Origin: Spongiibacter nanhainus
Lineage (GTDB): Bacteria; Pseudomonadota; Gammaproteobacteria; Pseudomonadales; Spongiibacteraceae
Direction: 5' to 3'
Assembly (NCBI RefSeq): GCF_016132545.1
Contig: NZ_CP066167.1
Coordinates: 3,408,001-3,472,000 of the forward strand
Length of the DNA stretch: 64,000 nt
Below the pieces are notes generated by a model. That model saw nothing but the letters and a program-made list of their open reading frames with translations. It was not told the origin of the DNA and ran no database searches. Positions 7,684 to 24,974 of the stretch are shown piece by piece. The position numbers and the translations under genes were made by a program. Position 1 is the first letter of the stretch. Every line of letters begins with the position of its first letter.

Positions 7684-7795
7684 GGCAGCTCCTTAGCGAA
7701 AGCATCAGCAAATAGCTTGATTAGCATAACGGCCAGGGCCCTGCTCAAGCTAGAGGGCGCGAGAGCTATTTACGCCGCCGTATTTGAAGGTACAT

Positions 7796-10315
7796 CTAAA
7801 AACGCCAGGCAATCTCCACACCGTAGTGGCGGGGATCACCCTGAACAAGAGTCGCCGCTCCAAGCAGGGCGGACACTGCAAAGCCGCTGCGGTAGTGCAC
7901 TTCATTGAACAGGTTTTCGATATAGGCGGTCACACTCAGGTTTTCGCCGGGAACCCAGTTGAGCCGAAAGTCCCACAACTGCACCTCCTCAATATAGGAG
8001 TTATCGTACTCCACCGCTTTGAAGTCGATGCCGGTGAACAACTCCGAGCGGAAGTAGGTGGACAAACGGGGCGAGAACATTCCCCACTCGCTCAACCACT
8101 GGTAGCTCACCGCCAGGGAATAAGTATGTTCCGGCACCAGAGCAAAGTCCTCATCGCTGCGATCAACAAGCTGCTCACCCTGGAGGGGAATAACCACATT
8201 GGTGAGGAATTCCTGATACTCCGCCTTGGTGTAGGAATAGCTGCCCATCAGAAACCAGTTTCCCGCCACCAGCGTGGTTTCAAATTCGGCGCCCTGCACC
8301 GTCGCCTCACCGGCATTAGACAGGAATAAGAACAAATCGCTGATGCGCTCTCCCTGCTCGGCAACCCGCACCTGAATATTCTCGTAGTCCATATAGTAAG
8401 CTGCCGCGTTGAAACGCAAGCGAGAATCCAGGCCATCGACCTTCACCCCCACTTCGTAGTTGGTGACCTCTTCCGGATCGAAAGACACTAACTCATCGCC
8501 CTTGGGCTCAAAGCCACCCGCTTTAAAACCTTGGCTGTAAGTGAGGTAGGCCATAAAACTGTCGACAAACAAGTCGTCGTGCCAACGCTCAGGGGCAATA
8601 AAGGACAGGGTGGTAGAAGGGGTGAAGTTGGTCCATTCATCATGACCATAGTCAGCGTTGTTGCGCACTGTCACCGGCAAGTCGGGAATGTCATCCGCCA
8701 AGGCATTAAACTGCGCCATGGTGATGGGGGAATACAAACCTGCAGGTTCGATATACAACGCGCCGATGCGTCCGCCGTAAGTGTTGTAGTCGATATCAAA
8801 CACTGTTAACTCCCGCTCGCGCTCCTCAAAGGTGTAGCGCCCACCCACGGTCAACTGCAGGTAGTCCGTCAGGTCGTAGGTACCTTGGGCAAAGACCGCC
8901 CAGCTTTTATTTTCCAAATCGCTGCGCGTGGCAAACAATGACGCCAGTGGAAACACCAGGGTATCGTCAATCAAGCCACAGACACTGCCCAGACTGACCG
9001 CATCACAGGCGGTGGAAGGTCGGATTCCCGCCAGCCCCTTGGGACCCACCAGTTGGGAAAAGGGGTTATTCTCAATCTCTTCAATGGATGCAAAGCCGCC
9101 AAGGGTATAGTTGAGGCGATCATTAAAAGCGACCCCAGAGAGCTGCAGTTCTTGACTGAACTGCAGTCGTTCTTCCTCCGGTGTGCGTTCACCATCGGCG
9201 GCTAAGGTGCGATTCAAGGCTTCCGTGCCACTGTCGAGGATACCGATGACGGTACCGTCCTGATCGTCATTGCGGGCAATGCCATCCTGCCAACTCAGCG
9301 CGGATATGCCCTTTAAAGAAAGATAGTCATCGATTTGCCAATCCACCGTGAGGGCCAGAAGACGGCTCTCCATAGTGATCTCACTGTGGGGCGTGGTAAC
9401 TGACAATTTGCGATTTTTTGCCAGGCGTTCGCTGCGTTGACAGGCGTCGACAAAATCCGGCTGGCCCGGATAACGCAGGGTTGCCACATTGGCCTCGGGG
9501 TTCTGAAACAGGCAGGTGATGCCCGAGCTCAACTCATCTTGCTTGCTCCAATACGCAAAAATGTCCACCCCCAGGTTTTGAGAGAGATCCATTTGAAAGC
9601 GGGCGGAAAAAGCCAGCCGATCTTCGTCGGCGAAGGTACCGCTGCCGTCTACATTGTCAAAGTAGCCCCCGGAACGGGTGCTGTTCAGCGCCATGCGCAG
9701 GCCGGCCTTACCGTCAAAAAGCGGCAAGTTACCGGCTAGCTTCATATTGCGACGGCCATAATTGCCAATATTGACGTCGATACTGGCATCGTAGTTGTTG
9801 TAATCCGCCGCCCGGGTATTCACCAAGATGGCGCCGCCGGTATTGTTCTTGCCAAACAGCGTGCCCTGGGGACCCCGCAACACCTGGATACTCTCCGTGT
9901 CCACGGTGTCCAAAAGCTGGGTATCTTGCCGGGCAATAAAAATCCCATTGAGATAGACCCCCACCCCGGGATCCAGCACCGATGTCGCCTCCCGCTGACC
10001 GATGCCACGGATAAAGATCGCCGGTGTTTTCGAGCCGCTTTCGCCAAATTGCAGACTGGGCACGGCTCCCTGTAGATCGGTAATCGAGGCGATCCCCGCC
10101 TCTTTCAGGCTTTCCGCTCCCAATGCGGTCACTGCCACCGGAGTTTCTTGCAGTCGCTCTTCTCTTTTTCGCGCGGTAACGAAGACTTCTTCGAGCACTA
10201 GCCCTCGCCCCATTTGTTTAGGCAGTGGAGTATCCTCAGCGGGGTCGGCTAGGGATACCGATGGCGCGACCAGGCACAGCGCTATCATCATCAAGCCACA
10301 AGGAAACTTATTCAT
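7796..10315 (-). CDS. TonB-dependent outer-membrane receptor at the end of the CYP51 operon
   Basis: An 839-residue receptor with a signal peptide (residues ~1-23), a TonB box near residue 43 (EEVFVTARKRE), a plug domain (RGIGQREATSVLDPGVGVYL; VLRGPQGTLFGKNNTGGAI) and a 22-strand beta barrel ending in the aromatic terminal signature (WRF). It belongs to the large CirA/FecA-like group common in marine and sphingomonad genomes that import hydrophobic or bulky substrates. It is the last gene of the run CYP51-ferredoxin, SDR, NTF2-like, cycloisomerase, receptor, 44 bases after the cycloisomerase. The strong GGAG before its ATG resembles the sites of the other genes. Sterol import is inferred only from this linkage. 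Confidence 0.9.
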   Translation of the reverse strand: MNKFPCGLMMIALCLVAPSVSLADPAEDTPLPKQMGRGLVLEEVFVTARKREERLQETPVAVTALGAESLKEAGIASITDLQGAVPSLQFGESGSKTPAIFIRGIGQREATSVLDPGVGVYLNGIFIARQDTQLLDTVDTESIQVLRGPQGTLFGKNNTGGAILVNTRAADYNNYDASIDVNIGNYGRRNMKLAGNLPLFDGKAGLRMALNSTRSGGYFDNVDGSGTFADEDRLAFSARFQMDLSQNLGVDIFAYWSKQDELSSGITCLFQNPEANVATLRYPGQPDFVDACQRSERLAKNRKLSVTTPHSEITMESRLLALTVDWQIDDYLSLKGISALSWQDGIARNDDQDGTVIGILDSGTEALNRTLAADGERTPEEERLQFSQELQLSGVAFNDRLNYTLGGFASIEEIENNPFSQLVGPKGLAGIRPSTACDAVSLGSVCGLIDDTLVFPLASLFATRSDLENKSWAVFAQGTYDLTDYLQLTVGGRYTFEERERELTVFDIDYNTYGGRIGALYIEPAGLYSPITMAQFNALADDIPDLPVTVRNNADYGHDEWTNFTPSTTLSFIAPERWHDDLFVDSFMAYLTYSQGFKAGGFEPKGDELVSFDPEEVTNYEVGVKVDGLDSRLRFNAAAYYMDYENIQVRVAEQGERISDLFLFLSNAGEATVQGAEFETTLVAGNWFLMGSYSYTKAEYQEFLTNVVIPLQGEQLVDRSDEDFALVPEHTYSLAVSYQWLSEWGMFSPRLSTYFRSELFTGIDFKAVEYDNSYIEEVQLWDFRLNWVPGENLSVTAYIENLFNEVHYRSGFAVSALLGAATLVQGDPRHYGVEIAWRF

Positions 10316-10359
10316 TATTATTTCTCCGCGAGTCCGTTCATTCCTTTATTAGGCAACAC

Positions 10360-11190
10360 TTACAAGGTGCCCAACCAGTGGGTAATAAAATCCAACAAAT
10401 AGAATGTCAGCATGCTGGCACTGAGGGCGGCGGCTATCACCACGAGCAGATTCCAGCGCTTGTCTCGGGTCTCGTCCAGGTAGTAGTAGATAGGAAAGCT
10501 GGCAATAAAGTAGGTAGCATAGATCGCCGAGCCATACGCCAGCATTCTCGCCATATCCCGATAGTAAAAGCTGTCCGCCATCATGGGATTAGCCATGGCT
10601 TTGGTTTCCAGCCAGGCCCAGATATAGCCCACGACAAACACAAAAATCGGAAATAACGCCACCATCCCCGGCAGGCCGCTGCTCTTTAGCCGCCGCAGGG
10701 CAATATTGGCGGTGGCGTGATAGGTCATGAAATAGACGTGGGTATAGAAATACATGATCAGTGGCACAGTTTGTTCACCGCTGCCCACCAAGGCCGCATC
10801 GAGGGTGGTGGTGGCATTGGGGTAGTGGTAAACCATGCCCAGTAGATCGAAGAAATACTCCGAGCCAAAGTAATTACCGAAAAAGCCGAATACAAACAGA
10901 TACAAATTGGCCTTTAACCAGTAGCTGTCCTGCCAGGGCACATCGGTATAGCGGGCGGCCAACACCATGGGAATCAACAGCACCGGTAGTGCCGTCAGCG
11001 CCGCGTGAGCCAGTAGCCCGGCATCGCCAAAGGATTCCGCCCAACCGGTGAACATCATCACCGCCATGGAGGCCATCCACACCGGCGAATACAGTAGGAA
11101 GAATTTCTCCACCCAGGCTTTGTCGGGATTGCTGGAAAACCAGCGCCCCGTGTTACCCACCGCCTGATTGTCCAGAACCTGCGTCGTCAT
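10360..11190 (-). CDS. Cycloeucalenol cycloisomerase (cyclopropylsterol isomerase) homologue
   Basis: A 276-residue polytopic membrane protein, close to the ~280 residues of the plant enzyme CPI1. In plants CPI opens the 9beta,19-cyclopropane ring of cycloeucalenol to give obtusifoliol. From memory, the plant protein matches here over the whole length: NPDKAWVEKFFLLYSPVW near the N-terminus; YWLKANLYLFVFGFFGNYF; EYFFDLLGMVYHYP; THVYFMTYHATANIALRRL; WLETKAMANP; YATYFIASFPIYYYLDE. Six or more hydrophobic segments are visible. A strong AAGGAG precedes the ATG. It lies between an NTF2-fold gene and a TonB-dependent receptor in the operon that begins with a CYP51-ferredoxin fusion; CYP51 acts directly after CPI in plants. 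The bacterial substrate is unproven. Confidence 0.85.
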   Translation of the reverse strand: MTTQVLDNQAVGNTGRWFSSNPDKAWVEKFFLLYSPVWMASMAVMMFTGWAESFGDAGLLAHAALTALPVLLIPMVLAARYTDVPWQDSYWLKANLYLFVFGFFGNYFGSEYFFDLLGMVYHYPNATTTLDAALVGSGEQTVPLIMYFYTHVYFMTYHATANIALRRLKSSGLPGMVALFPIFVFVVGYIWAWLETKAMANPMMADSFYYRDMARMLAYGSAIYATYFIASFPIYYYLDETRDKRWNLLVVIAAALSASMLTFYLLDFITHWLGTL

Positions 11191-11290
11191 GCCTTTCTCC
11201 TTGTCATTATTATTGTCTGTCTCGATCGCGTTTCTAACGACTTGTCGGCGAACCGAACCGCGCTAGCACCCTATGCAGGCGCGATTGGAC

Positions 11291-11929
11291 TCAGCGCCCT
11301 GTCATCGCGATTTTGACCATTGCCATGGCATTGCGGGCCTTTTCCCAGCGGCTGGGCTCCTCACGCAATTTGCGGTGTCCGGGCAGCAATGCGCCCTTGG
11401 CCTGTTGGTGAATTTTCTTCTTCACCACTGGTTCCAGGGCTCCTGCACCGGCCAGCTGAAAGAAACAATCTTTGGCATTGCCGAAGTCAAAGAAATCCCG
11501 CTGCCAGTGCCACTGATAATTACCGGCATATTCAAACCAGGAGCCGCCAATTCCGGCGATTTCAAAACGGCTGCCATCCTTGCGCCTATATGGCGCAAGC
11601 TGTTTCCAGAAACCGATCACCGTGCCCCGTTTTTCGTCGATAATGATGTCGTGGTAGGGATACTCCCACTCTTCAAAACCGTGCATCTGAAACCCCAGAG
11701 CGATATCACAAATTTCGCTTCGCCCCTCGGCGACAAAGTCTTCATTGGGCCCGATGTTCCAGCTGTACACTGCATCCTCGGTGTACATGGGGCCCAGGTA
11801 GGTGGGCCAGTCGCCGGCCTTTTCCGCCTCCACGTTGGCGGCCAGCCATTTTTGCATCATTTCTTCCAGCTCTTCCCGGGGGTAGGCCTTGTTGGGGGGT
11901 GTCATGGATGGAACGCGTTTATCACTCAT
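11291..11929 (-). CDS. NTF2/SnoaL-fold protein of the sterol-like operon
   Basis: A 212-residue protein whose central part has the alpha+beta cone pattern of NTF2/SnoaL/ketosteroid-isomerase folds: an N-terminal helix (EELEEMMQKWLAANVEAEK), then DWPTYLGPMYTEDAVY and a set of beta strands with WFEYAGNYQWHWQRDFFDF, followed by a basic helical tail. The start is the ATG at 11929 because GGAG stands seven bases before it; an upstream in-frame extension into the SDR gene is unlikely. It sits 17 bases after the SDR gene. Members of this fold include isomerases, cyclases and hydroxylating polyketide enzymes, so the reaction cannot be named. Confidence 0.7.
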   Translation of the reverse strand: MSDKRVPSMTPPNKAYPREELEEMMQKWLAANVEAEKAGDWPTYLGPMYTEDAVYSWNIGPNEDFVAEGRSEICDIALGFQMHGFEEWEYPYHDIIIDEKRGTVIGFWKQLAPYRRKDGSRFEIAGIGGSWFEYAGNYQWHWQRDFFDFGNAKDCFFQLAGAGALEPVVKKKIHQQAKGALLPGHRKLREEPSRWEKARNAMAMVKIAMTGR

Positions 11930-11946
11930 GGTTTTCTCCAGTATTG

Positions 11947-12981
11947 TTATATTTCTGTGTTGGGGGAAACGCTGGCGCCGGAGGGCGCAGGAATATGCCC
12001 AGCTGCCACCAGCCAATCGACGGTGTCAGCGAGGGTCTGTGTCGCCTCCCGAAAGGGGCGGCCATAGAGCTGGCGGATTCTTTGCGAGTCAGCCGGTCGC
12101 AGGCCGGTGGCGATACGCGCCGTCTCTCGGGAAAGGGGAAAGTCAATGCTGACAAAGCGGCGCAGTACATCAAACACCACCCCTGTGATCCGCAGCAGTG
12201 CCCCCGGCAACCGCAGCGTCCGCACTGGTAGCCCTGTCGCCCGCAGCGCCCCGGCCACCTGTGACCAGCTCAGGTAGTGGCCGCCAAGAATAAAACGGGC
12301 ATTACATGGATTGCCCTCCGGCGGCTGACTCAACAGCTGACAGTGGGCCTGAGCCACGTCCCGCACGTCGACGATTTGCAGGCCGGACTCCGTCAAAGGC
12401 ACAAATTTCTCGACAAAGGTCTTCACTGCGGCATTGCTCTCTGACAGGCCCGGATCGTCGGGCCCCATCACCGAAGAGGGGTAGGTAATCACTACCGGCG
12501 CCCCAGCAGACTGCATCGCCCGCACCGCCTCCTCGCAGGCCAATTTCGACGCCGTGTAGGCATCCCCTGCCGGAGACAGCGGCCCGTCCTCACGATAGCG
12601 GCGGACTTCCGGGTGCATCAGCACCGCCAAACTCGAGACATAGATCACCCGCTGAATACCCTGCCGCACCGCACTGCCGATCACATTGCGCACCCCGTCC
12701 AGGTTCATCGACCGGGTCTGGGCGGCGTGGCGGGCATCCAAGTTGACCGCCGCTGCCGCATGGACAACGGCGTCACAACCGGCCATCCCCGATTCCACCA
12801 GCGTGGCGTCCTCCATACTGCCCACCAGCCAGTCGTCGAGGTGATGACCGCGTTCGGCAAACCAACGCTGAGCGCGCTGGCGGTCACGCACTAACAAACG
12901 CAGTTCGTGCCCCGCCTCCAGCAACGCCAATGCGGTGTGGGCGCCGACAAAGCCAGTTGCACCGGTCACCAGAACTTTCAT
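11947..12981 (-). CDS. Extended SDR, 3beta-hydroxysteroid dehydrogenase / epimerase-like
   Basis: A 344-residue NAD(P)-dependent extended short-chain dehydrogenase. The Rossmann motif is TGATGFVGAH at residues ~6-15, and the catalytic pair is YTASK. The C-terminal half is variable and substrate-binding, as in 3beta-HSD, HpnA and dihydroflavonol reductase relatives. Its ATG abuts the P450 stop with no gap. In bacterial and eukaryotic C-4 demethylation a 3beta-HSD-family enzyme oxidises and decarboxylates sterol 4alpha-carboxylates. That role, or plain 3beta-OH oxidation, would fit the neighbours but is inference. Confidence 0.82.
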   Translation of the reverse strand: MKVLVTGATGFVGAHTALALLEAGHELRLLVRDRQRAQRWFAERGHHLDDWLVGSMEDATLVESGMAGCDAVVHAAAAVNLDARHAAQTRSMNLDGVRNVIGSAVRQGIQRVIYVSSLAVLMHPEVRRYREDGPLSPAGDAYTASKLACEEAVRAMQSAGAPVVITYPSSVMGPDDPGLSESNAAVKTFVEKFVPLTESGLQIVDVRDVAQAHCQLLSQPPEGNPCNARFILGGHYLSWSQVAGALRATGLPVRTLRLPGALLRITGVVFDVLRRFVSIDFPLSRETARIATGLRPADSQRIRQLYGRPFREATQTLADTVDWLVAAGHIPAPSGASVSPNTEI

Positions 12982-14694
12982 TTAATGGGCGGCCTTAACA
13001 ATGCGCAGCGCCTGGTTGGGGCAGTGGGCCACGGCGGCCTCTATGCGCTTTCTCCGCGCCTCGCTTACTGTGTTATCAACAATGGTCAACACACCGTCGT
13101 CATTCACCTTGAAGACTTCCGGCGCCTCCCCGGTACACATGGCGTGTCCCTGACACAGCTGCCGGTCCACCTCGACCAACAGGCTCTGCTCGACTAGCTG
13201 CTCGCTTTGCGGTTCTGCCCGCTGGCTGTGGGCGGGGCACCGAGCCAGGGTGTCGGTCTCAGCCCCCGTCTCAGCGCTCGAGCCAAGGCGAGAGGAAAAG
13301 CTGGCGGGATCCCGACGGCGGTAACGGACCCGACAAGGCGTCATCGGCTGCACAATCATCTCGGCATAGTTGTCGACATAACTGTCCGGCGCATCCACCA
13401 GTTCAAAGTCATAGCGGCGCAGCAAAATGGCGAAAATGGCCTTGATCTGAAACATGGCAAAGGCGTTGCCAGAGCACTTGTGCTTACCACCACCAAAGGG
13501 TTGGTAAGCCATTAGCCGACGGTCTTCCCCCCGCTCTTTACTAAAGCGGTCGGGATCAAACACAAAGGGATTGGCAAACAGAGAGGCAATGCGGTGAGTC
13601 ACCGGTGGCGAGGTCCACACCATATCGCCCTCGGCAATGCGGTAGTGTTTGAAGGTCAGGGGCTCGGACACCTTTCTCATTAATATGATCAGCGGCGGGT
13701 GCAGGCGCAGCACTTCCTTTAAGGCATTTTCCAGTGTCGGCACTTCCCGCAGGCTTTGAAAACTCACCGCACCCTCTGCGCCCAGCAGGGTATCCAGCTC
13801 CCGATTAACCCGGCGCAGATAGTCCGGGTGGCGAAGCAATTCCAGCAACACCCAGGCAGCCGTGCCGGAGCTGGTGTGGTGGCCGGCAAAGATGGCACCC
13901 ACCAGCAAACCGGTTATCTCGTTATCATCCAGCGCCGAGCCATCCTCATAGCGCATATCAATCAGGCTTTGAAACATGTCGGTGGGTTTATCGGTCTGCG
14001 CCTTGCGCCGTTCGACGATTCCCCCTACCAGAGTTTGCAGGCGCGCCCGGGCTCTGTCCCGGCGGCGAAAACGCGGCAAAGGCAAACCGGGAAAATGGTA
14101 GGCCAGGGGGTGCACCCCCTGCTCCAAATCGTGGTAAATCTCGGCAAATTCCTCGCTCAATTCATAGCGAAATTCCCGGCCCAGCAGACAGTGACTAGCG
14201 GTGTTGATGGTGAGGCGCTTCATAAAATCGACCAGATCGATTTCACCGCTGTCCCCCCAGTCGGCAATGCTCTCTTCGACTTCCTTCACTATCTTATGGG
14301 AATGATCCCGCATCGCCTCCATACGCAGCGACGGCATCAGGGACTTAAGCTGCTCGTTCTTGCGATCATTGGGTGCATCAAAGACCAGCCCCTCACCAAA
14401 GATCGGCGTCATGAGCTTGTAAGCCGCAGACTGATCCAGTTGCTCGTCGGAGGAGCGGTAAAACAGCGTACTGGCCTCCTCGCCGGTAAGCAGCACAATC
14501 CGCTGCCCCAGTAATTTGAAGCTCACAATCTCGCCGTGGCGGTCGGCTAGCCCCTTTACAAACTGATAGGGATTGCGGACGAAATTCAGCATCTGCCCCA
14601 ATACCGGCAGACCGCCCGAGGCGCGGGGTGGCTCGGCACCGCCACCGGAAACGGCGGCGGGTTTGGCCTGGTTCGTCACTGTGCTTGTGGTCAT
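12982..14694 (-). CDS. CYP51-family P450 fused to a [3Fe-4S]-type ferredoxin
   Basis: A 570-residue protein. Residues ~25-460 are a P450 with CYP51 hallmarks: Y92 and TPIFGEGLVFD at 96-106 (substrate-recognition region), AGHHTSSGT in the I helix at 270-278, ENALKEVLRLHPPLIILMR with the ExxR at 327-330, and the heme Cys407 in FGGGKHKCSG. These match Mycobacterium CYP51 closely from memory. An Arg/Ser-rich linker leads to a ferredoxin (residues ~503-570) with C514, C520 and C558-Pro, the pattern of a three-cysteine ferredoxin. The same fusion is known from Methylococcus capsulatus CYP51. The expected reaction is oxidative removal of the sterol 14alpha-methyl group. GGAG precedes the ATG. No ferredoxin reductase is nearby. 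It is first in its operon, divergent from a TetR gene. Confidence 0.87.
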   Translation of the reverse strand: MTTSTVTNQAKPAAVSGGGAEPPRASGGLPVLGQMLNFVRNPYQFVKGLADRHGEIVSFKLLGQRIVLLTGEEASTLFYRSSDEQLDQSAAYKLMTPIFGEGLVFDAPNDRKNEQLKSLMPSLRMEAMRDHSHKIVKEVEESIADWGDSGEIDLVDFMKRLTINTASHCLLGREFRYELSEEFAEIYHDLEQGVHPLAYHFPGLPLPRFRRRDRARARLQTLVGGIVERRKAQTDKPTDMFQSLIDMRYEDGSALDDNEITGLLVGAIFAGHHTSSGTAAWVLLELLRHPDYLRRVNRELDTLLGAEGAVSFQSLREVPTLENALKEVLRLHPPLIILMRKVSEPLTFKHYRIAEGDMVWTSPPVTHRIASLFANPFVFDPDRFSKERGEDRRLMAYQPFGGGKHKCSGNAFAMFQIKAIFAILLRRYDFELVDAPDSYVDNYAEMIVQPMTPCRVRYRRRDPASFSSRLGSSAETGAETDTLARCPAHSQRAEPQSEQLVEQSLLVEVDRQLCQGHAMCTGEAPEVFKVNDDGVLTIVDNTVSEARRKRIEAAVAHCPNQALRIVKAAH

Positions 14695-14877
14695 TATTAT
14701 TCTCCAGTACCGTCTTGCGGCCCTGTTTCAATCAGCGGTGGTGAAGGTAAGCCGGTTTTCCCACGCCGATTTATAGGGAATGATTGTTGGCGTGGTGAAA
14801 TGTAGTGCTCGCCCTTCGCTTTTTACATACTGGCGGATAGTGGCCAGTTGTGATTCTTGGTGGCTGACATTGCACAC

Positions 14878-14908
14878 TTACAGCCTTACACTTTATGGAA
14901 ACCTGTAA
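14878..14908. promoter_or_regulatory. Candidate operator between the CYP51 operon and the TetR gene
   Basis: TTACAG at 14878-14883 and CTGTAA at 14903-14908 form an inverted repeat with a 19-base spacer containing a further TTACA. It lies in the 239-base divergent region between the CYP51-ferredoxin gene and the TetR start at 14934, the usual place for an autoregulatory TetR operator. It is short and unproven. Confidence 0.35.
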
Positions 14909-14933
14909 AGTCTCAGCATACTCAGTTTGGACG

Positions 14934-15512
14934 ATGAACCCAATAAGCCGACAAAGCATCTACAACGACACCCAGCAGCGTATCCTCGACGCCACCATCA
15001 ACTGCGTGAAGCTCTGGGGGCTGGAGAAAACCAGCCTCAACGACATCGCCAAACAGGCCGGCGTGACCCGGCCGACGGTGTACAGCTACTACCCCAGTCG
15101 CGACGCAGTGATCCGTGCCGCCCTGCTTCAATCCGGCTACGCCTTTGGCGAGCGGGTCATCGACCATATCCGCCGCTTTGCCTCGGCCCGTGAACGCCTG
15201 CTTGAGGCAGTGCTGTTTGCCATTGAGCAACTCCCCCTTGAACCTTATCTGACCCTGGTGACCCGCTCGGACATCCCCAGCCAGTTTTATGAGGACGCGC
15301 TGATCGACAGCGAGGGCCTACACATTTGCCTGGCGATCTTCGACGCTGTTTTTGAAGACAGTGACCACAGCGATCAGGACAAGCTCGACATCATGGAGCT
15401 CAGCATCCGCCTCACGCTGTCACTGCTGGTGCTGCGCGGCCCAACCACCCGCAGCACCAAAGAGCTGCGGGGCTTTTTAGAACGGCGCTTGCTGCCCGCG
15501 GCGGGGCTGTAA
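14934..15512 (+). CDS. TetR/AcrR family regulator divergent from the CYP51 operon
   Basis: A protein of 192 residues from the ATG at 14934. An upstream in-frame ATG at 14895 would add 13 residues but overlaps the candidate operator and lacks a ribosome site. The N-terminal TetR DNA-binding domain has LEKTSLNDIAKQAGVTRPTV followed by YSYYPSRDAV, a normal recognition helix. The C-terminal domain is helical. Divergent placement suggests it represses the CYP51-to-receptor operon and its own gene in response to a hydrophobic effector. Its 3' end converges with the second operon, 12 bases away. Confidence 0.85.
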   Translation: MNPISRQSIYNDTQQRILDATINCVKLWGLEKTSLNDIAKQAGVTRPTVYSYYPSRDAVIRAALLQSGYAFGERVIDHIRRFASARERLLEAVLFAIEQLPLEPYLTLVTRSDIPSQFYEDALIDSEGLHICLAIFDAVFEDSDHSDQDKLDIMELSIRLTLSLLVLRGPTTRSTKELRGFLERRLLPAAGL

Positions 15513-15524
15513 CCAACCGGACTC

Positions 15525-15968
15525 TCATTGCCCGCCGGGTCGCTGACCGCCGCAGAGCACCTCGGTGACCGCTTCGGTGTCCATATACTCTTTTAGCTGG
15601 ATCACTTGGCCGTCTCGAAATCGAAACAGAAAGTGATAGCGGTTGCGGTAGACCTGCCCCGAGGCATGTTGGCCTTCACTCACTGCCTCAACCGCCACCC
15701 GGTCTCCCTCGGCGGTGGTGGCCTGCACCTCAAAACGCAAACCCTGGGGAAAGGCTTCCAGCACAGCACCCGCCGACGCGGCTATCTGCTCCCGAGTGTA
15801 AGTACCGGATATCAATGTCTGTCCCGAGGTCCACAAGCTTGCTTCCGGGTGATAGAGGGCAACAAAGCCCTCCACATCCCCCGCCGACAGGCGGGCCATA
15901 AACTCCAGCGCCGTCGCCCGGTTGGTCTCAGTGCGCTCCCGAAAGGCCGACTCACTCTCTGCCATCAT
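15525..15968 (-). CDS. NTF2/SnoaL-fold protein, ketosteroid-isomerase-like
   Basis: A 147-residue protein of the SnoaL/KSI-like group (COG3631 type). It has a helical N-terminus (NRATALEFMARLSAGDVEGF), then ALYHPEASLW, strands with VEAVSEGQH, and YHFLFRFRDGQVIQLKEYMD, the typical final strand pair. It is the last gene of the second P450 operon, and its ATGATG start overlaps the stop of the preceding gene. Family members include delta5-3-ketosteroid isomerase and limonene-epoxide-hydrolase relatives. An isomerase or hydrolase step on a terpenoid or steroid is plausible but not shown. Confidence 0.75.
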   Translation of the reverse strand: MMAESESAFRERTETNRATALEFMARLSAGDVEGFVALYHPEASLWTSGQTLISGTYTREQIAASAGAVLEAFPQGLRFEVQATTAEGDRVAVEAVSEGQHASGQVYRNRYHFLFRFRDGQVIQLKEYMDTEAVTEVLCGGQRPGGQ

Positions 15969-16348
15969 TCAGTCTCCGCAGCCTTGCGCCATTTATCGAT
16001 CAGGCCCAACAAGGTCAGTCGCAACTTAGAGGCCCGGGGATAGCCCACATACTGGGTTAAAAACAACACGGCCTCCTCTAGCTGCTCCGGACTGAGCTCG
16101 CCCCGGCGGTAGGCCGACTCTGCCTGGATGGAAAAGGTCATTTCCTCACCCTGGGCGGCGATGGCCCCCAACAACAGCAAACGCCGGTCGCGGATACTCA
16201 GAGTGTCATCGCTCCAGAGCTCGCCAAACAGCGAGCCCAACATAAAGTCGAAGAAGCGATCCTCCCCTTCCGCCGGCGGCTCCGGCAGCTGGTTGCAGTA
16301 CACCTCGTGATAGCGGGCAATACCCTGGTCGCGTTTTGAATCGCTCAT
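15965..16348 (-). CDS. Carboxymuconolactone-decarboxylase / AhpD-like protein
   Basis: About 127 residues from the ATG at 16348, chosen because GAGGAAA lies upstream and the longer frame overlaps the SDR gene. The helical core (TLSIRDRRLLLLGAIAAQG...) followed by SPEQLEEAVLFLTQYVGYPRA is characteristic of the CMD/AhpD fold. The CxxC pair of AhpD peroxidases is absent, so this is the CMD type. CMD-like genes commonly accompany P450/SDR catabolic sets with unknown activity. It overlaps the next gene by four bases. Confidence 0.78.
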   Translation of the reverse strand: MSDSKRDQGIARYHEVYCNQLPEPPAEGEDRFFDFMLGSLFGELWSDDTLSIRDRRLLLLGAIAAQGEEMTFSIQAESAYRRGELSPEQLEEAVLFLTQYVGYPRASKLRLTLLGLIDKWRKAAETE

Positions 16349-16371
16349 TGCACTTTCCTCAATCGCTGGTG

Positions 16372-17112
16372 TTAAACCCGCATAAACTGGCCGCCGTCGA
16401 CATTGAGAATATGTCCGGTAATCCACGACGCCTTATCCGAGAGCAGAAACAACACGGCGTCGGCCATATCGTCCGGGGTGCCCACCCGGCTGATGGGCAT
16501 TTGTTTCACCAGCTCATCGGCATAATCACCGGCGGTATTGCGCAGTGCCTGGGTTTCGGTAGGGCCCGGCGCGATGGCGTTGATACGGATTTTGCGCCAG
16601 CCCAGCTCCCGGGCCAGCGATCCGGTTAAACCGTTGACGGCCAGCTTGGCCACACCATAAAAGCCCATATTCATCCACGCTGCCGTGGAGGACTGATTGA
16701 CGATAGCGCTGCCCTTGGGCATGTGGGGCACGCAGGCCCGGGCCATCAACAAGGCACCGTGAACATTGACCCGCATAAATTTTTCCAGGTAATCCATATC
16801 GACATTCAGGTAGCCCTCGATTTTCATGTCGCCAAAAATCGCGGCATTGTTGATCAGGTAGTCGATCTGCTGATAGCGATCCATAGCCGCCGCCGCGCAA
16901 TCCAGGCAGGACTGCTCATCCCCCACGTCGGTGCGCACAAACAGCGCGTCGCCGCCGTCTGCGCGGATGTCCGCCACCACCCGCTCGCCCTGCTCGGCAT
17001 TGAGCTCGGCGACTACAACTTTCATCCCTTCGGCGGCGCAGCGCTTGGCATAGGCCTCGCCAATGCCCTGCCCGGCCCCGGTTACCACCACAACTTTGTC
17101 TTTAAAGCTCAT
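16372..17112 (-). CDS. Classical short-chain dehydrogenase/reductase
   Basis: A 246-residue classical SDR with cofactor motif TGAGQGIGEAY at residues ~11-21, NNAA at ~88, catalytic Ser in NQSSTA and YGVAK (Tyr-x3-Lys), ending ILNVDGGQFMRV as usual for the family. It probably oxidises or reduces a hydroxyl/keto group on the operon's substrate. An AGGGGAT site precedes its ATG at 17112. It stands 23 bases before the CMD-like gene and 35 after the ferredoxin gene, consistent with one transcript. Confidence 0.88.
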   Translation of the reverse strand: MSFKDKVVVVTGAGQGIGEAYAKRCAAEGMKVVVAELNAEQGERVVADIRADGGDALFVRTDVGDEQSCLDCAAAAMDRYQQIDYLINNAAIFGDMKIEGYLNVDMDYLEKFMRVNVHGALLMARACVPHMPKGSAIVNQSSTAAWMNMGFYGVAKLAVNGLTGSLARELGWRKIRINAIAPGPTETQALRNTAGDYADELVKQMPISRVGTPDDMADAVLFLLSDKASWITGHILNVDGGQFMRV

Positions 17113-17147
17113 CAGCTATCCCCTGATTCTGTTGATATTAAGCGCGA

Positions 17148-17468
17148 TCACTCCTGGTGCTCAGGCAAGCGGATGCGCAAACCATCCATGGCCTCGGTCA
17201 CCGGTACCTGACAACTGAGGCGGCTCTCCGCCCGGCGTTCGGATACGCCCTCCAGCATGGCCTCTTCCCCTTCGGCAATGGCGGGCATAGCAGCTTGGTC
17301 TTCGAGTTGGATAAAACAGTGGCAGGTGGCGCAGGAACAGATACCACCGCACATACCCTCGATGCCCGGGATCATGTTGAGAGTGGCGCCCTCCATCAAG
17401 CTCATGCCCTCTTCGACCTCCACCGTGTGGGCCTCGCCGTTGTATTCTATGTAGGTAATCGCTGCCAT
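17148..17468 (-). CDS. [2Fe-2S] ferredoxin, probable P450 electron donor
   Basis: 106 residues from the ATG at 17468, with GAGGGCG upstream; a longer in-frame extension to 17615 crosses the intergenic region and the adjacent SDR and is not needed. Cysteines in GMCGGICSCATCHCF and a later RLSCQVP give the C-x5-C-x2-C...C pattern of adrenodoxin/putidaredoxin-type ferredoxins. It would shuttle electrons to the operon's P450 (20838-22031), since the other P450 carries its own ferredoxin. No reductase gene is in the window. Confidence 0.9.
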   Translation of the reverse strand: MAAITYIEYNGEAHTVEVEEGMSLMEGATLNMIPGIEGMCGGICSCATCHCFIQLEDQAAMPAIAEGEEAMLEGVSERRAESRLSCQVPVTEAMDGLRIRLPEHQE

Positions 17469-17533
17469 TGTCGCCCTCGTGTTATTGCTTTTTCTGTTGC
17501 CATTTGTTGTAGATAGCCGCCCCTGGGCCACCG

Positions 17534-18319
17534 TCAAAATTGGAATTTTTCGCTCAGCCGGTTGGGGCGAATTTCCAGCAAATCGATGGACACCCCCGCT
17601 GGCACCCCCAGGCAATACACCAGCGCGTCAGCGACATGCCCCGGCTCCATACCGGTATCCATCCAGCCCCCCAGCCTTTTGTTCCAGGCATCCACCGCCT
17701 CTTTAAGCCGCGCCATATCCCAACCCGCCGCGAATTCGGTCATGGCCGCTCCGGGTCGCAGTATCGTCACCCCGATGTCCCACTCCTGGCATTCCCGGCG
17801 GGTATCCCGACTCAACCGTTCCAGGCCAGCCTTGGTGGCGGCGTACAAGGACAATCCCTGCATCTCGTCGATGTGCTCGGCGCTGGCGGAGCTGATATTG
17901 ACGATGCGGGGGTTGTCGCCCCCCTGAAGCAGAGGGATCGCCGCCCGGGTGCAATACATCGCCGCCGCTATATTGAGGGAGAGCTGCTGATCGATTTCCT
18001 CATCGCTGTAGTTATTGGCAAAGCCCGGCCGCGCCATACCCGCGTTGTTAACAAGGCCATCCAATCGCCCAAAGTGGGAGTGGATGGCCTGGATCGCCCG
18101 CGCCGCGTCGGCGCTATTGGTCACATCCGCAGCGACGGCGACACAATTGGCTTGCCCCAAGGTCTCAGCGACGGCGGTCAATTTGTCCTCACCTCGGGCA
18201 ATAATGCCGACTCGGGCACCGGCAGCGACGATAGCCTCGGCCATGGCCAACCCGTAGCCGCTGGACGCGCCGGTAATCGCATAAACTCGCTCAGTAATGT
18301 CTGTTCGGAAGGCGCTCAC
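17534..18319 (-). CDS. Short-chain dehydrogenase/reductase
   Basis: 261 residues from the GTG at 18319, preferred because GGAG lies six bases upstream; the alternative TTG eight codons earlier has no site. It has cofactor motif TGASSGYGLAM, NNAG, catalytic Ser in NISSASAEH and YAATK. The C-terminus (LEIRPNRLSEKF) resembles the YdfG/clavaldehyde-reductase-like SDRs. It is the second SDR of this operon and quite different from the first, so the pathway likely has two alcohol/ketone steps. Confidence 0.87.
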   Translation of the reverse strand: MSAFRTDITERVYAITGASSGYGLAMAEAIVAAGARVGIIARGEDKLTAVAETLGQANCVAVAADVTNSADAARAIQAIHSHFGRLDGLVNNAGMARPGFANNYSDEEIDQQLSLNIAAAMYCTRAAIPLLQGGDNPRIVNISSASAEHIDEMQGLSLYAATKAGLERLSRDTRRECQEWDIGVTILRPGAAMTEFAAGWDMARLKEAVDAWNKRLGGWMDTGMEPGHVADALVYCLGVPAGVSIDLLEIRPNRLSEKFQF

Positions 18320-18361
18320 AGCTTCTCCACTCTCTTTTCCCAATACGCGGCCACAGTGACG

Positions 18362-19828
18362 CTAAACAGCCAGCGCCAGAGTCTTGGTTTCCAGATATTC
18401 TTCAAAGCCTTCGGGGCCCATCTCCCGGCCGACACCACTTTGTTTGTAGCCGCCGAAGGGGGCATCGGGCCCGAGGAAGTTGCCGCCATTGATGTTCACG
18501 GTGCCGGTGCGCAGCCGGCTGGCAAAGTCCAAAGCACGCTCATCACTGCCGGCGTACACGGCGGCGGACAAGCCATAAATAGAGTCGTTAGCAATCTGCA
18601 GGGCCTCATCTTCGCCGTCGTAGGGAATCATCACCAGCACAGGCCCAAAGATTTCCTCCCGAGCGATGGTCATGCTGTTGTCCACCTCAGAAAACACCGT
18701 CGGCTCAACAAAGAAGCCCCGCTCGATATGGCTGGGCACACCGCCACCGAAGATCAGTTTGGCCCCTTCCTGCTTGCCTTTTTCGATATAGGACAACACC
18801 CGGTCACGCTGCCGGGCCGAAATCAGCGGCCCCTGCATTTCGCCACTGGTATCCTCACTGCCATAGCTGAGGCCGCCGAGGTAGGCTTTCACCAGCTCCT
18901 CGGCCTCCGCCAGTTTACGGCGGGGCACCAGCAGGCGAGTAGTAATGGCACAGCCCTGGCCACTATGGGCACATACTGAGAAAGTGCCAAACAGGGCGGT
19001 GGCCAGGTCGGCATCCTCCAGCACCACCATCGCGGACTTGCCCCCCAGCTCTAGGAACACCCGCTTGACGGTGTCGGCGGCGTTCTTCATCACCTGCCGC
19101 CCCACGGCTGTCGAGCCAGTAAAGGACACCACATCCACCCGGGGATCGCGGCTCAGTAATTCGCCAATCTCAGCCGGATCAGAGGCGGTTAGTACATTAA
19201 AGACCCCCGCCGGCAGCCCGGCATCGGCGGCAATCTTGCCCAATACACTGGCCGACCAGGGAGTTTCCGGCGCGGCCTTAAGTACCACCGTGCACCCTGC
19301 CGCCAGAGCGGGGATGCACTTGGCTAAATTGATCTGAATGGGAAAGTTCCAAGGCGAAATCGCCGCCACCACGCCGGCCGCTTCCTTCCAAACCCGGCGC
19401 CGGCTGGTGATCCCCATCACCTCGTAGTCACCAATATCCCGCTGCCACTGGAAGCCTTCAAGATAGTTCAGGGGCCAGGACGCCATACTCACTGGGCCGT
19501 CACACTGGGGGCCGTTAACAAACATCTGGGTAGTGCCGGTGTCTGCAGCTACTGCACCGCGCAGCCAGTCGATATGGGTGTGTAGTCCCGCCACAAAGCG
19601 GCGCAAACACTCTAGACGGTAGCTGTGATCCCGGGACCAGTCACTGTGATCAAAGGCCTGCCTTGCAGCGTCCAACGCTCGATGGGCGTCTGCCAAACTG
19701 GCGTCGGCGGCACGCCCCACCACAGCTTCTGTCAGAGGGCTAACATTGTCGTAAAGGCGCTGCCCCTCGGCATCGCAAAGCTGGCCGTCGATATACAGTT
19801 TGGCCACGGCGTAGTCGGCATCAGTCAC
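18362..19828 (-). CDS. NAD(P)-dependent aldehyde dehydrogenase
   Basis: A 488-residue aldehyde dehydrogenase with all main motifs: PWNFPIQINL, FTGSTAVGRQ, catalytic Glu in LELGGKSA, catalytic Cys near residue 292 in SGQGCAITT, and EIFGPVLV. It begins with GTG at 19828 behind GAGG. It should oxidise an aldehyde, for instance one formed by the neighbouring P450 and alcohol-oxidising SDR, to a carboxylate. Terminal oxidation of a side chain would use exactly this P450, SDR, ALDH sequence, but the substrate is unknown. Confidence 0.9.
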   Translation of the reverse strand: MTDADYAVAKLYIDGQLCDAEGQRLYDNVSPLTEAVVGRAADASLADAHRALDAARQAFDHSDWSRDHSYRLECLRRFVAGLHTHIDWLRGAVAADTGTTQMFVNGPQCDGPVSMASWPLNYLEGFQWQRDIGDYEVMGITSRRRVWKEAAGVVAAISPWNFPIQINLAKCIPALAAGCTVVLKAAPETPWSASVLGKIAADAGLPAGVFNVLTASDPAEIGELLSRDPRVDVVSFTGSTAVGRQVMKNAADTVKRVFLELGGKSAMVVLEDADLATALFGTFSVCAHSGQGCAITTRLLVPRRKLAEAEELVKAYLGGLSYGSEDTSGEMQGPLISARQRDRVLSYIEKGKQEGAKLIFGGGVPSHIERGFFVEPTVFSEVDNSMTIAREEIFGPVLVMIPYDGEDEALQIANDSIYGLSAAVYAGSDERALDFASRLRTGTVNINGGNFLGPDAPFGGYKQSGVGREMGPEGFEEYLETKTLALAV

Positions 19829-19914
19829 CCGTCATTCCTCTTGGTCTGCAAGTTGGATCGCTTGTGTTGTTAACCCGAAAAACATTATTCCCGGGTTAAT
19901 CCACATCGGCTGGC

Positions 19915-20805
19915 TCACCCCCGATCACCCTCGGGAGTAATGGCGTGGAGAAAACTGTGGAAAATGCCCGCCCGAGCGGTCTCGCCACAGGGCAGCGATA
20001 TGCCCAATTGCCCGGCGAGGGACAGGGCATGGTCCAGATCTTTCTCCGCCAGGGTGGCAAAGGGCTCAAAAATAGCGCGAACGTCGGATTCCGAGGCGGC
20101 CTCCAGCATCATGTCCCGGCCACTCACAAACTGTTTGGCCATAGGGGACAGCACTTTGTTGGCCTCCCCCACGGCGTAGAGTTTTTCCACATCCACCCCC
20201 GCCGCCTTGACCAGGGCAGTACCCTCACTGGCGGCGGTAAAGGCGATATAGTTCATTAAATTGTTGGCCAATTTTAACACCGTGCCATCACCGGGCCGGC
20301 CTGCGGCTACCACCGTGGTACTAACACAGTCCAACATCGGCTTAAGGCGTTCGGCGATGGCCGGTTCGGTACCCAACATCACGCACAGGCCGCCCTCAGC
20401 GGCCACCGCAGCGCCACCGGTAATGGGTGCATCCACCACATGCATGTGGTAGCGACCGGCGTCCCCGGCCCAGCGCACGATATTGTCCCGGGTGACAGTG
20501 CTGTGAATGGCGTAAATCGCGCCTGAGCGGGCCTGTTCAAACATTCCCGGGGTACCGCCCTTGCCATATAAAAGATCTTCCACATCCTGGTCGTGACGCA
20601 CACAGATCCCCACCAGATCGCAGTCCCGGGCGATATCCAGCGGCGAGTCCGCGGCGGTGGCGCCCAGGGCAACCAGGTCTGCAACCGGCTCTGGCATCAC
20701 GTCGTAGACCTGCAGGGACAGACCGTGATCGGTCGCTTTTTTTGCCAGATTTTCCGCCATGGGCTTGCCGATATTGCCGAGCCCGATAAAGCCGACGTTG
20801 AGCAT
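19915..20805 (-). CDS. 3-hydroxyisobutyrate-dehydrogenase-like NAD(P)-dependent enzyme
   Basis: A 296-residue beta-hydroxyacid dehydrogenase. The N-terminal Rossmann motif is GFIGLGNIGKPMAEN, the substrate-binding segment is DAPITGGAAVAAEG, and the catalytic Lys region KLANNLMNYIAF lies near residue 180. A perfect AAGGAG precedes the ATG. Family members oxidise 3-hydroxyisobutyrate, tartronate semialdehyde and similar beta-hydroxy acids. Within this operon it might handle a branched hydroxy-acid intermediate or fragment. It is 32 bases downstream of the P450 gene. Confidence 0.85.
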   Translation of the reverse strand: MLNVGFIGLGNIGKPMAENLAKKATDHGLSLQVYDVMPEPVADLVALGATAADSPLDIARDCDLVGICVRHDQDVEDLLYGKGGTPGMFEQARSGAIYAIHSTVTRDNIVRWAGDAGRYHMHVVDAPITGGAAVAAEGGLCVMLGTEPAIAERLKPMLDCVSTTVVAAGRPGDGTVLKLANNLMNYIAFTAASEGTALVKAAGVDVEKLYAVGEANKVLSPMAKQFVSGRDMMLEAASESDVRAIFEPFATLAEKDLDHALSLAGQLGISLPCGETARAGIFHSFLHAITPEGDRG

Positions 20806-20837
20806 GATATTTCTCCTTCAGCGATAGCGGCTGTCGC

Positions 20838-22031
20838 CTACACGACTGGCTCAAAAGTGATGGGGAGGGTGGTAAACCCGCGTACATTGGGGTTGTGGGT
20901 ACGGTCCGAACGGGACATATCGATATCGTAGTGAGGGATGCGTTTCAGCAGTTCCTCAAAACACACCCGCACTTCCAAGCGCGCCAGGGCCGCCCCCAGG
21001 CAGGAGTGAATGCCGGTGCCAAAGGCCATATGATCCCGGGCTCCGCGAAAGACGTCGTATTCCTCGGCGCGCTCATAGCGCTCTTCATCCCGGCTGGCGG
21101 AAATAATGCACAGGCCGACCCGATCACCCGCTTTGATTTTACGGCCCCGCACTTCCACATCCCGCATCGCAGTACGGCCAATCATCTGGGAGGAGCCGTC
21201 GTAGCGCAGGGTTTCCTCTACTCCGTCGCCGATGCGCTCGGGATGATCCACCAGACGCTGGCGCTGCTCTGGGTGCTGCCACAAACGAAAACCCATATTG
21301 CCGATCAACTTGGTGGTGGTTTCGTTGCCGGCCACAGCCAGCAAAATACCAAAACCGATCACGTCGTCGTGAGTCATCTTGCCGTCCCGCTCGGCCTGCA
21401 ACACGCAACTGAACATATCGTCGGGATCGTGGGGACGACCTGCCAGCGAGCGGGCAAGCTCGTCAAAGTAGCCAGCGATTTTCATATAGGCATTGATATT
21501 GCGGTCGTTGAGACCAAACTGGCCGTCCTCCCGGTAAATCAGGTCATCCGCCCACTGCCGGACATCCGCCTGGTCAGACTCGGGGACATGAATCATGGTG
21601 GAGATCACATCCATGGGCAGGATGGCGCTGAAATCTTGGATCAAATCCAGCTCGCCCCGGGCCAGGTGAGGCTCCAGCAGGGCGACAGCCTTCTGCCGGG
21701 TGTAGTCCTCCAAGCGGCGAATACGCTGGGGCACCATCAGCCCAGACAGTAACTTCCGAATCCGGGTGTGATCGGGCGGATCCATGTTGATAAACATCGG
21801 GTAGCCACTGGTGGCGTTTTGATCCGCCTCCAAGGCCACACCGTTACTGCTGCTGTAGGTTTTAAAATCCTTAAAGGCCGCCTGGCAGTCGTCCCACTTG
21901 GTGAACAACCAGAATCCGTGCTCCTTGTTGTAGTGGACCGGATCTTCCTCCCGCAACCGTTTGTAATAGGGGTAGGGGTCGTCGTGGACGGCGTGGGAAT
22001 AGGGATTAAATTCAATGGCAGCGCCAGTCAT
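20838..22031 (-). CDS. Class I bacterial cytochrome P450, first gene of the second operon
   Basis: A 397-residue soluble P450 with I-helix AVAGNETTT, ExxR in EETLR and heme-binding Cys in FGTGIHSCLG. It lacks a fused redox partner, and the operon's [2Fe-2S] ferredoxin is the likely donor. N-terminal features (INMDPPDHTRIRKLL) are typical of bacterial hydroxylases acting on terpenoids, steroids and fatty acids. I cannot assign a CYP subfamily with confidence; CYP125-like side-chain hydroxylation would suit a sterol pathway but is speculation. A 294-base divergent region separates it from the tandem-MarR regulator. Confidence 0.9.
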   Translation of the reverse strand: MTGAAIEFNPYSHAVHDDPYPYYKRLREEDPVHYNKEHGFWLFTKWDDCQAAFKDFKTYSSSNGVALEADQNATSGYPMFINMDPPDHTRIRKLLSGLMVPQRIRRLEDYTRQKAVALLEPHLARGELDLIQDFSAILPMDVISTMIHVPESDQADVRQWADDLIYREDGQFGLNDRNINAYMKIAGYFDELARSLAGRPHDPDDMFSCVLQAERDGKMTHDDVIGFGILLAVAGNETTTKLIGNMGFRLWQHPEQRQRLVDHPERIGDGVEETLRYDGSSQMIGRTAMRDVEVRGRKIKAGDRVGLCIISASRDEERYERAEEYDVFRGARDHMAFGTGIHSCLGAALARLEVRVCFEELLKRIPHYDIDMSRSDRTHNPNVRGFTTLPITFEPVV

Positions 22032-24842: not shown

Positions 24843-24974
24843 GCCCTACTCATCGCCCCCGGAAAATACGCATACCCCTCTACCAGTGCTTTTCATAGCA
24901 TGGTGTAAAGAATCGCAGTGCTGCGTCTGCCCTTTACGGCCGTGGATGCCGCACCAAACCATGATAATGGCGGT

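Follow-up and report, generated by a model that had tools for sequence, protein, structure and literature searches.

Two adjoining operons of Spongiibacter nanhainus as a probable catabolic upper pathway for triterpenoid-type sterols

Gene content and layout of the locus

The DNA discussed here, called the window below, is a stretch of 64,000 nt from Spongiibacter nanhainus (NZ_CP066167.1, positions 3408001-3472000), whose genome (G000, the home genome) is one contig of 4.08 Mb. Open reading frame (ORF) and family searches of the window delimit two minus-strand operons within 7796-22031, separated by a TetR gene. Operon 1 encodes a sterol 14alpha-demethylase homologue (CYP51) fused to a ferredoxin, a homologue of the plant cyclopropyl sterol isomerase CPI and an NTF2-fold protein (Bsr below), and operon 2 encodes a second P450 with a series of mostly oxidative enzymes. 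An initial annotation had read both as a system for uptake and oxidative processing of cyclopropyl sterols or related triterpenoids. All genes that it named are present by family searches, and a CMD-family protein is additional to its list. With the starts chosen in the analysis, gaps within the operons are -4 to 100 bases. The features are as follows.

7796..10315, minus strand: TonB-dependent outer-membrane receptor, operon 1 (PF00593, PF07715)
10360..11190, minus strand: CPI homologue (cyclopropyl / cycloeucalenol isomerase), operon 1 (homologue comparison; 276 aa)
11291..11929, minus strand: NTF2-fold protein, probable 8,14-sterol reductase (8,14-Bsr), operon 1 (six pocket residues)
11947..12981, minus strand: extended short-chain dehydrogenase/reductase (SDR), 3beta-HSD / HpnA / SdmB-like, operon 1 (PF01073 3Beta_HSD, 60 bits; PF01370, 100 bits)
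12982..14694, minus strand: CYP51-ferredoxin fusion, operon 1 (PF00067 and Fer4 families; PDB 6mcw, 630 bits)
14886..14908, no strand: operator-like dyad in the TetR/CYP51 region (dyad built from L013 and L038)
14934..15512, plus strand: TetR regulator between the operons (PF00440; start shifted from 14895)
15525..15968, minus strand: SnoaL/KSI-like protein, operon 2 (PF12680, 65 bits)
15965..16348, minus strand: CMD-family protein, operon 2 (PF02627, 28 bits)
16372..17112, minus strand: classical SDR 2, operon 2 (PRK07774, 331 bits, cut-off 303; best PDB match 3qiv, 273 bits)
17148..17468, minus strand: 2Fe-2S ferredoxin, operon 2 (PF00111; fdx_isc 47 bits, below cut-off)
17534..18343, minus strand: classical SDR 1, operon 2 (PF00106)
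18362..19828, minus strand: aldehyde dehydrogenase (ALDH) of the Rv0768 kind, operon 2 (TIGR04284, 659 bits, cut-off 775; next family 379 bits)
19915..20805, minus strand: HIBADH-like protein (3-hydroxyisobutyrate-type beta-hydroxyacid dehydrogenase), operon 2 (PF03446, PF14833; best PDB match 3qha)
20838..22031, minus strand: second P450 (CYP123-like), operon 2 (PF00067)
22326..23549, plus strand: double MarR-type regulator, divergent from operon 2 (two PF12802 stretches)

For the NTF2-fold gene, the ORF list gives 11291-12016 with an earlier TTG start, which is overlapped by an ORF of the opposite strand, and 11291-11929 was adopted. The gene order is largely repeated in Spongiibacter pelagi (L013/L039), where the SnoaL/KSI-like protein has no match, and in a second congener (L038), where this protein is 72% identical, the stretch ends inside the HIBADH gene and the P450 gene follows at once. 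SDR 2 is 88-90% identical in both. Because this order recurs in the two congeners, the two-operon arrangement is more than a chance neighborhood.

CYP51, 8,14-Bsr and their linkage to CPI

The best PDB match of the CYP51 fusion protein is 6mcw, a ferredoxin-fused P450 51 (630 bits, query residues 21-566 including the ferredoxin part), and other P450 51 chains come next. The 6mcw chain is, we assume, the Methylococcus enzyme. The window protein contains AYKLMTPIFGEG, FAGHHTSS and FGGGKHKCSG, of which the first two are taken here as the signature B' and I-helix motifs of CYP51. Its orthology to sterol 14alpha-demethylases is strongly supported by these comparisons, and it would remove the 14alpha-methyl group. 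In the window and in 11 aligned CPI-adjacent loci the B'-helix sequence is YKLM; it is YPFM in Nonomuraea and YQMM in a sister genus. Enzymes with leucine instead of phenylalanine at this position presumably tolerate 4,4-dimethyl sterols, so that obtusifoliol need not be the sole substrate of this CYP51.

It has been reported that an NTF2-superfamily enzyme, 8,14-Bsr, converts the 8,14-diene produced by CYP51 to the 8(14)-ene, and that its homologues, often co-localized with CYP51, occur in gamma- and alphaproteobacteria, Mycobacteriales and myxobacteria (Lee, Giner and Welander, 2026; PMC13277303). Y37, Y43, Y78, Y80, D133 and D136 of the published enzyme are all found in the window's NTF2-fold protein with exact spacing, and the six pocket residues are invariant in 11 aligned sequences. 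Its low-confidence model (pLDDT 64.5) matches NTF2/SnoaL structures (best E 1.3e-5), and PF12680 scores 21 bits, below the gathering score; a profile match to 7ue2 was discarded, as it covers only 45 residues of a chain named RPB_PLP3_R6. The protein can very probably be equated with the 8,14-sterol reductase that was reported in 2026, and to this extent part of the unit is already described.

The distribution of CPI was followed at several scales. When 84,980 species genomes were scanned by pattern, an approach that reaches close relatives only, 11 loci were obtained, and the versions of 40% identity known from the family panel were not among them. A search of 398 genomes of the phylum gave three matches, including the window's own and a negligible one, and on plasmids CPI had no match. 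A weak match in G167 (19.6 bits) was dropped, and duplicates were counted once, namely S. pelagi (L013 = G025 = G014) and Zavarzinia marina (L009 = G021 = G063), with identical sequence in both cases. This leaves 16 distinct CPI genomes: six in the family and ten outside the family panel, that is, not among the 21 family genomes searched.

CYP51 adjoins CPI in 10 of the 11 pattern-scan loci, the exception being a metagenome-assembled genome (MAG) of Polyangia (L014). Within the family panel CYP51 exceeds 360 bits in the very six of 21 genomes that carry CPI, an overlap with a probability of 1.8e-5 if the genomes are assumed to be independent, which these are not. That CPI and CYP51 belong together, as initially proposed, is borne out by both comparisons. 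The ten pattern-scan loci, the window and L038 make up 12 CYP51-CPI loci. Bsr lies between CYP51 and CPI in ten of them (the exceptions are L015 and L016), a TetR gene is divergent from CYP51 in nine, and the extended SDR is found in eight (at least 43% identity). Bsr exceeds 320 bits in three of 18 congeners (G000, G014, G020), which are also the CPI carriers among them, and in seven of the ten CPI genomes outside the family panel.

The remaining operon 1 proteins show a similar neighborhood. The extended SDR adjoins CYP51 at 43-53% identity in L009-L013, L019 and L038. Its NCBIfam scores are 178 bits for HpnA and 77 bits for SdmB, both below cut-off. An assignment as NSDHL was rejected, and the protein is kept as 3beta-HSD/HpnA-like, because it is only 28% identical over 178 aa to the NSDHL-like protein described below. 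In L042 two copies of this SDR (31% and 38% identity to the window's) stand beside the CPI gene at 6766-9569. Orthologues of the TonB receptor adjoin CPI in L013/L039 and L038 (67-74% identity), and homologues of 60-61% identity stand beside CYP51 in L059-L061. The receptor may serve in sterol uptake.

Operon 2 and demethylation at C-4

The P450 of operon 2 is present in all six family CPI carriers. Its orthologue exceeds 600 bits in the five other family carriers, whereas no score is above 239 bits in the four non-carrier relatives searched or above 256 bits in the CPI genomes searched outside the family panel. The P450 gene of the sister genus lies 7-11 kb from CPI, and in one carrier (L065) a 58% homologue of the operon 2 ferredoxin directly follows it. 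The home genome itself has 22 PF00067 match rows, two of them in one frame, or about 21 P450 genes in 4.08 Mb, which is a high number for a gammaproteobacterium. The whole of operon 2 is found in only three of the six family carriers (the window, L013/L039 and L038). The initial annotation had named a lack of co-occurrence of the two operons in relatives as a refuting outcome, and on this point the result is mixed: both operons are together in these three, whereas the three sister-genus carriers show the P450, one of them with the ferredoxin, and their loci (L040-L042, L059-L061, L065-L067) contain no ALDH, HIBADH, SDR or CMD match at E<=1e-3.

Outside the family panel another gene set adjoins CYP51-CPI. 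In L009, L010, L015, L016, L017 and L018, that is, in six of the ten CYP51-CPI loci from the pattern scan, a GMC oxidoreductase, an ALDH, an SMO-like FA_hydroxylase and an NSDHL-like SDR are found there. The only PDB match of the NSDHL-like protein at E<=1e-20 is human NSDHL (6jkg), the sterol-4alpha-carboxylate 3-dehydrogenase. Its gene was searched for in 19 genomes with a query from HdN1, one of the ten outside the panel. It exceeds 380 bits in all ten CPI genomes outside the panel, and none was found at E<=1e-40 in the nine family genomes searched, six of which, the home genome included, are CPI carriers. Six of the positive genomes were already known, and the new information comes from G023, G024, G026, G031 and the nine family genomes. 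In G024 and G031 an ALDH and an SMO-like gene stand next to the NSDHL-like gene (L082, L084). The SMO-like gene is beside the NSDHL-like one in eight of nine outside CPI genomes examined (Polyangia excluded), and its query has no match in the window, to which that search was confined. A second ALDH, 47% identical to that of operon 2, lies near CYP51-CPI in L015 (12760-15126), whose genome has no P450 closely related to that of operon 2.

A counterpart is also found in actinobacteria. In Nonomuraea gerenzanensis (L025), 10 kb contain, in order, a P450 (42% identity), an SDR (26%, a weak counterpart of SDR 1), CYP51 (43%), a separate ferredoxin ORF identified by eye, Bsr (52%), ALDH (53%), SDR (55%), HIBADH (36%) and CMD (37%). 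Nocardia farcinica (L024) has ALDH, SDR, HIBADH and CMD only, with no CYP51 match in 21 kb. Two further ALDH neighborhoods, both on plasmids, were set aside as having no CYP51-type cluster: in M. branderi (L026) tblastn of the window set gave only the ALDH and a weak TetR match, and in Streptomyces (L027) no P450 is among the annotated genes.

The mycobacterial CYP51 region Rv0763c-Rv0771 was compared as well, with its gene order beyond the genes named next being our assumption. Published passages on M. tuberculosis list Fdx (Rv0763c), CYP51B1 (Rv0764c), CYP123A1 (Rv0766c), AldA (Rv0768) and an oxidoreductase (Rv0769). P450, SDR, CYP51, ALDH, SDR, HIBADH and CMD genes share one region in the window and in Nonomuraea. 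In contrast to this region, the window adds CPI, the extended SDR and the TonB receptor, and its CYP51 is fused to the ferredoxin. The window operons and the mycobacterial-type region may be versions of one system. The physiological relevance of the demethylase activity in mycobacteria and M. tuberculosis is called unclear in a review (PMC6469627), and a CYP123 is reported to have given the 420-nm form only (PMC13254585).

The reciprocal pattern of the NSDHL-like gene and the operon 2 P450 fits the swap of one C-4 demethylation module for another. There is also a chemical argument. Enzymes of the HIBADH family act on beta-hydroxy acids; a 3-hydroxy-4-carboxy sterol is such an acid, and its oxidation would lead to decarboxylation. 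Since the NSDHL-like and SMO-like genes stand in for operon 2 outside the family and the Nonomuraea set combines operon 2 genes with CYP51, operon 2 points to C-4 demethylation, and not to the general hydroxyl, keto and side-chain oxidation initially suggested for it. This is the least certain part of the proposal and is put forward as a possibility, which we infer from gene content. The best NCBIfam score of the NSDHL-like protein is OleD, below cut-off, and the mutual exclusion coincides with one family boundary and so may reflect a single event.

It is possible, if unlikely, that only operon 1 acts on sterols and that operon 2 serves an unrelated pathway, for another terpenoid or an aromatic substrate, and became its neighbor by chance in this genus. 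Such a split would agree with the lack of a close P450 orthologue in CPI genomes outside the family panel, with the gaps in the sister-genus loci examined, with the four-gene set of Nocardia farcinica and with the regulatory signal described next, whose sole match sits at operon 1. Against it stand the P450 orthologue in all six family CPI carriers with no score above 239 bits in the four non-carriers, its distance of a few kb from CPI in the sister genus, and the operon 2 genes on either side of CYP51 and Bsr in Nonomuraea.

Regulation and neighboring genes

S. pelagi (L013) and L038 have a common dyad upstream of CYP51. When the 64-kb window was searched with it, a single match with two mismatches was found at 14886-14908, and none in 100 shuffles. 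TetR probably controls the CYP51 operon. A common operator for operon 2 was rejected, since the sole dyad match in the window adjoins CYP51. The start of operon 2 is divergent from the double MarR gene, and in L041 a 43% homologue of this regulator likewise faces away from the P450 orthologue. At 24918-28775, within a few kb of operon 2, lies the gene of a large hybrid histidine kinase, which comprises CHASE, PAS, receiver and Hpt domains. The protein encoded at 154-1704 resembles what we take to be a photolyase-related flavoprotein.

The CPI homologue

The CPI homologue is a 276-aa membrane protein that has no match in Pfam, NCBIfam or PDB sequences. Its predicted model is all-helical and of good confidence (pLDDT 85, pTM 0.84), and a fold search of PDB with it returned nothing at E<=0.001. 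Compared with Arabidopsis CPI1, for which an unverified sequence was used, it shows 36% identity over 264 aa, nearly the whole length; kinship to the plant enzyme is tentative by this comparison, a point that counts against the pathway proposed below. If it holds, the protein would open 9beta,19-cyclopropyl sterols. It is rather improbable that the protein is something other than a cyclopropyl isomerase, for example an enzyme that shifts a sterol double bond in some other way, or a partner of CYP51 in the membrane. The lack of any naming match in Pfam, NCBIfam, PDB sequences and PDB folds and the unverified plant sequence used for comparison leave room for such a role, but the identity extends over nearly the whole protein and the link with CYP51 is constant. 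The CPI of the Polyangia MAG (L014, 9911-10783; also L086) is 71% identical to the window's.

Catabolic or biosynthetic genome context

An oxidosqualene cyclase (OSC), for which PF13243 was used here, is a marker of bacterial sterol biosynthesis. The home genome has no PF13243 match, and de novo sterol synthesis was rejected for this reason. PF13243 is absent from 15 of the 16 distinct CPI genomes, some of which are incomplete MAGs, and KshA_C exceeds 200 bits in 15 of the 16, a figure that outside the family covers CPI genomes only. In the home genome KshA (PF19298, 239 bits) stands beside best-family matches below cut-off to HsaA (372 bits), HsaC (296 bits) and HsaD (175 bits) and to a DmpE-type hydratase, together with HsaF- and HsaG-type enzymes above cut-off. 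The hsaC gene, for which the initial annotation had advised a search, is represented by this below-cut-off match in an hsa-type cluster. KshA above 100 bits is found in 18 of the 21 family genomes. Within the family, therefore, it does not discriminate, and the absence of the cyclase and the cross-family pattern carry the weight. Because KshA is found and a cyclase match is missing in 15 of the 16 carriers, the metabolic direction is probably catabolic, and the suggested degradation context finds support in that CPI carriers look like steroid degraders, not sterol makers.

The exception to both patterns is the Polyangia (myxobacterial) MAG, with KshA_C at 71 bits. One region of it contains matches to OSC (TIGR03463, 701 bits), SdmA (419 bits), SdmB (300 bits) and squalene synthase (113 bits), all below cut-offs, and the broader OSC family TIGR01787 is above its cut-off. 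In this MAG the CPI family is possibly used in biosynthesis.

Putative steroid degraders were counted as 265 of more than 8,000 genomes (PMC4810484). Two published observations count in favor of a degradative setting. Spongiibacteraceae isolates from sponges degrade steroids (PMC5790920), and a Mycobacterium fed with lanosterol gave an 8(14) C19 steroid according to work cited in PMC13277303. Cycloartenol, 24-methylenecycloartanol and lanosterol appear in the titles of its references 66 and 67, and the lanosterol conversion by that strain is likewise cited in PMC5962712. Sterol salvage, in which the enzymes would remodel scavenged algal sterols for membranes or signals and not for carbon, is very unlikely: homologues of CPI, CYP51 and Bsr are biosynthetic elsewhere and the Polyangia genome has OSC and SdmAB matches, but KshA_C in 15 of the 16 CPI genomes, the hsa-type cluster of the home genome and the mostly oxidative enzymes of operon 2 speak against it.

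Proposed pathway and its relation to known systems

Taken together, the region probably encodes the upper part of a catabolic pathway, in which triterpenoid-type sterols are trimmed ahead of 9,10-seco steroid degradation. Its substrates would be cycloartenol, cycloeucalenol, obtusifoliol, lanosterol and their relatives. After import, presumably by the TonB receptor, CPI would open the 9beta,19-cyclopropane to give a delta-8 sterol, as judged from its homology. CYP51, fed by its fused ferredoxin, would then take off the 14alpha-methyl group to give the 8,14-diene, and the NTF2-fold protein, acting as 8,14-Bsr as published for its relatives, would reduce the diene to the 8(14)-ene. Operon 2 might strip the C-4 methyls, and here the scheme is least certain: the P450 would hydroxylate the methyl group, ALDH would convert it further into a carboxyl group, and oxidation of the 3-hydroxyl of the resulting beta-hydroxy acid, either by the hydroxyacid dehydrogenase or by the extended SDR, would lead to decarboxylation. 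SMO and NSDHL are the eukaryotic counterpart of this branch. The product would pass to the KshA/Hsa route, whose genes lie outside the two operons in the same genome.

Several observations count against this scheme. No Bsr match is found in the genomes of L015 and L016, and the three sister-genus carriers have no orthologue of it, their best matches reaching 27-29% identity and 50-56 bits. Their CYP51 is unfused and followed by a separate ferredoxin ORF, and it is separated from CPI by 12 kb or 242 kb, or the two genes are on different contigs. The CYP51 locus of the sister genus (L059, L060, L061) is flanked by a pair of luciferase-like monooxygenases and a PQQ dehydrogenase, along with a SnoaL protein and a TonB receptor in divergent orientation. 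In Nonomuraea, 21 kb contain no match to CPI, the TonB receptor or the extended SDR. In addition, the substrate and the catabolic direction are read from genome data.

Parts of the proposed upper pathway can be recognized in known systems. In PMC13277303, as in the window, the CYP51-ferredoxin fusion adjoins a member of the NTF2 superfamily that shares all six pocket residues. New here, relative to the main text of that paper, in which the words "cycloisomerase" and "operon" do not occur, are CPI, both candidate C-4 modules and the cyclase-free setting with KshA. The plant sterol pathway (CPI, CYP51, SMO, C4D) likewise has CPI with CYP51, and SMO-like and NSDHL-like genes are found in the HdN1-type loci. 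In contrast to plants, 15 of the 16 carriers have KshA and no cyclase match, and the role of the C-14 reductase would fall to Bsr. Methanotroph sterol synthesis (OSC, CYP51, Bsr, SdmAB) has in common with the window the CYP51-ferredoxin fusion and Bsr, and the extended SDR is distantly SdmB-like; unlike methanotrophs, the home genome has no PF13243 cyclase and the two operons include no Rieske-type gene. The 9,10-seco route (KshA, HsaA-G) is present in the home genome, and the window unit would sit upstream of it. As generally described, this route starts from 4-desmethyl, 14-desmethyl steroids.

The claim of the initial annotation that no system of this composition is described stands for CPI, the C-4 candidates and the catabolic setting, and falls for CYP51 with the NTF2-fold reductase, the pair in PMC13277303. 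With this pair excepted, no cluster for cycloartenol or lanosterol degradation, and none of bacterial CPI with CYP51, is among the literature matches listed, which cover titles and the starts of abstracts and few subscription journals; nor is one described in passages of PMC8172173, PMC6385002, PMC12667688, PMC5962712 and PMC10653915. As a whole, the initial interpretation is partly supported.

Implications for steroid catabolism

Known steroid catabolism starts from cholesterol-like molecules. Algae and plants also contain 4-methyl, 14-methyl and 9,19-cyclopropyl sterols. The unit supplies candidate genes for each ring modification needed before such compounds can enter ordinary steroid degradation. 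It also offers a testable role for the CYP51 of bacteria that make no sterols, and could explain why this enzyme is kept. A broader idea, offered tentatively and with less confidence than the upper pathway itself, is that sterol-biosynthesis enzymes (CPI, CYP51 and 8,14-Bsr) have been re-used as a transferable set for stripping sterols before steroid catabolism proper, combined with either of two interchangeable C-4 modules, one of the SMO/NSDHL type and one of a previously unrecognized P450-ALDH-hydroxyacid dehydrogenase type. If the assignment of operon 2 is true, it would represent a P450-based C-4 demethylation system, and a module of this type would account for what the orphan CYP51/CYP123 region of mycobacteria does.

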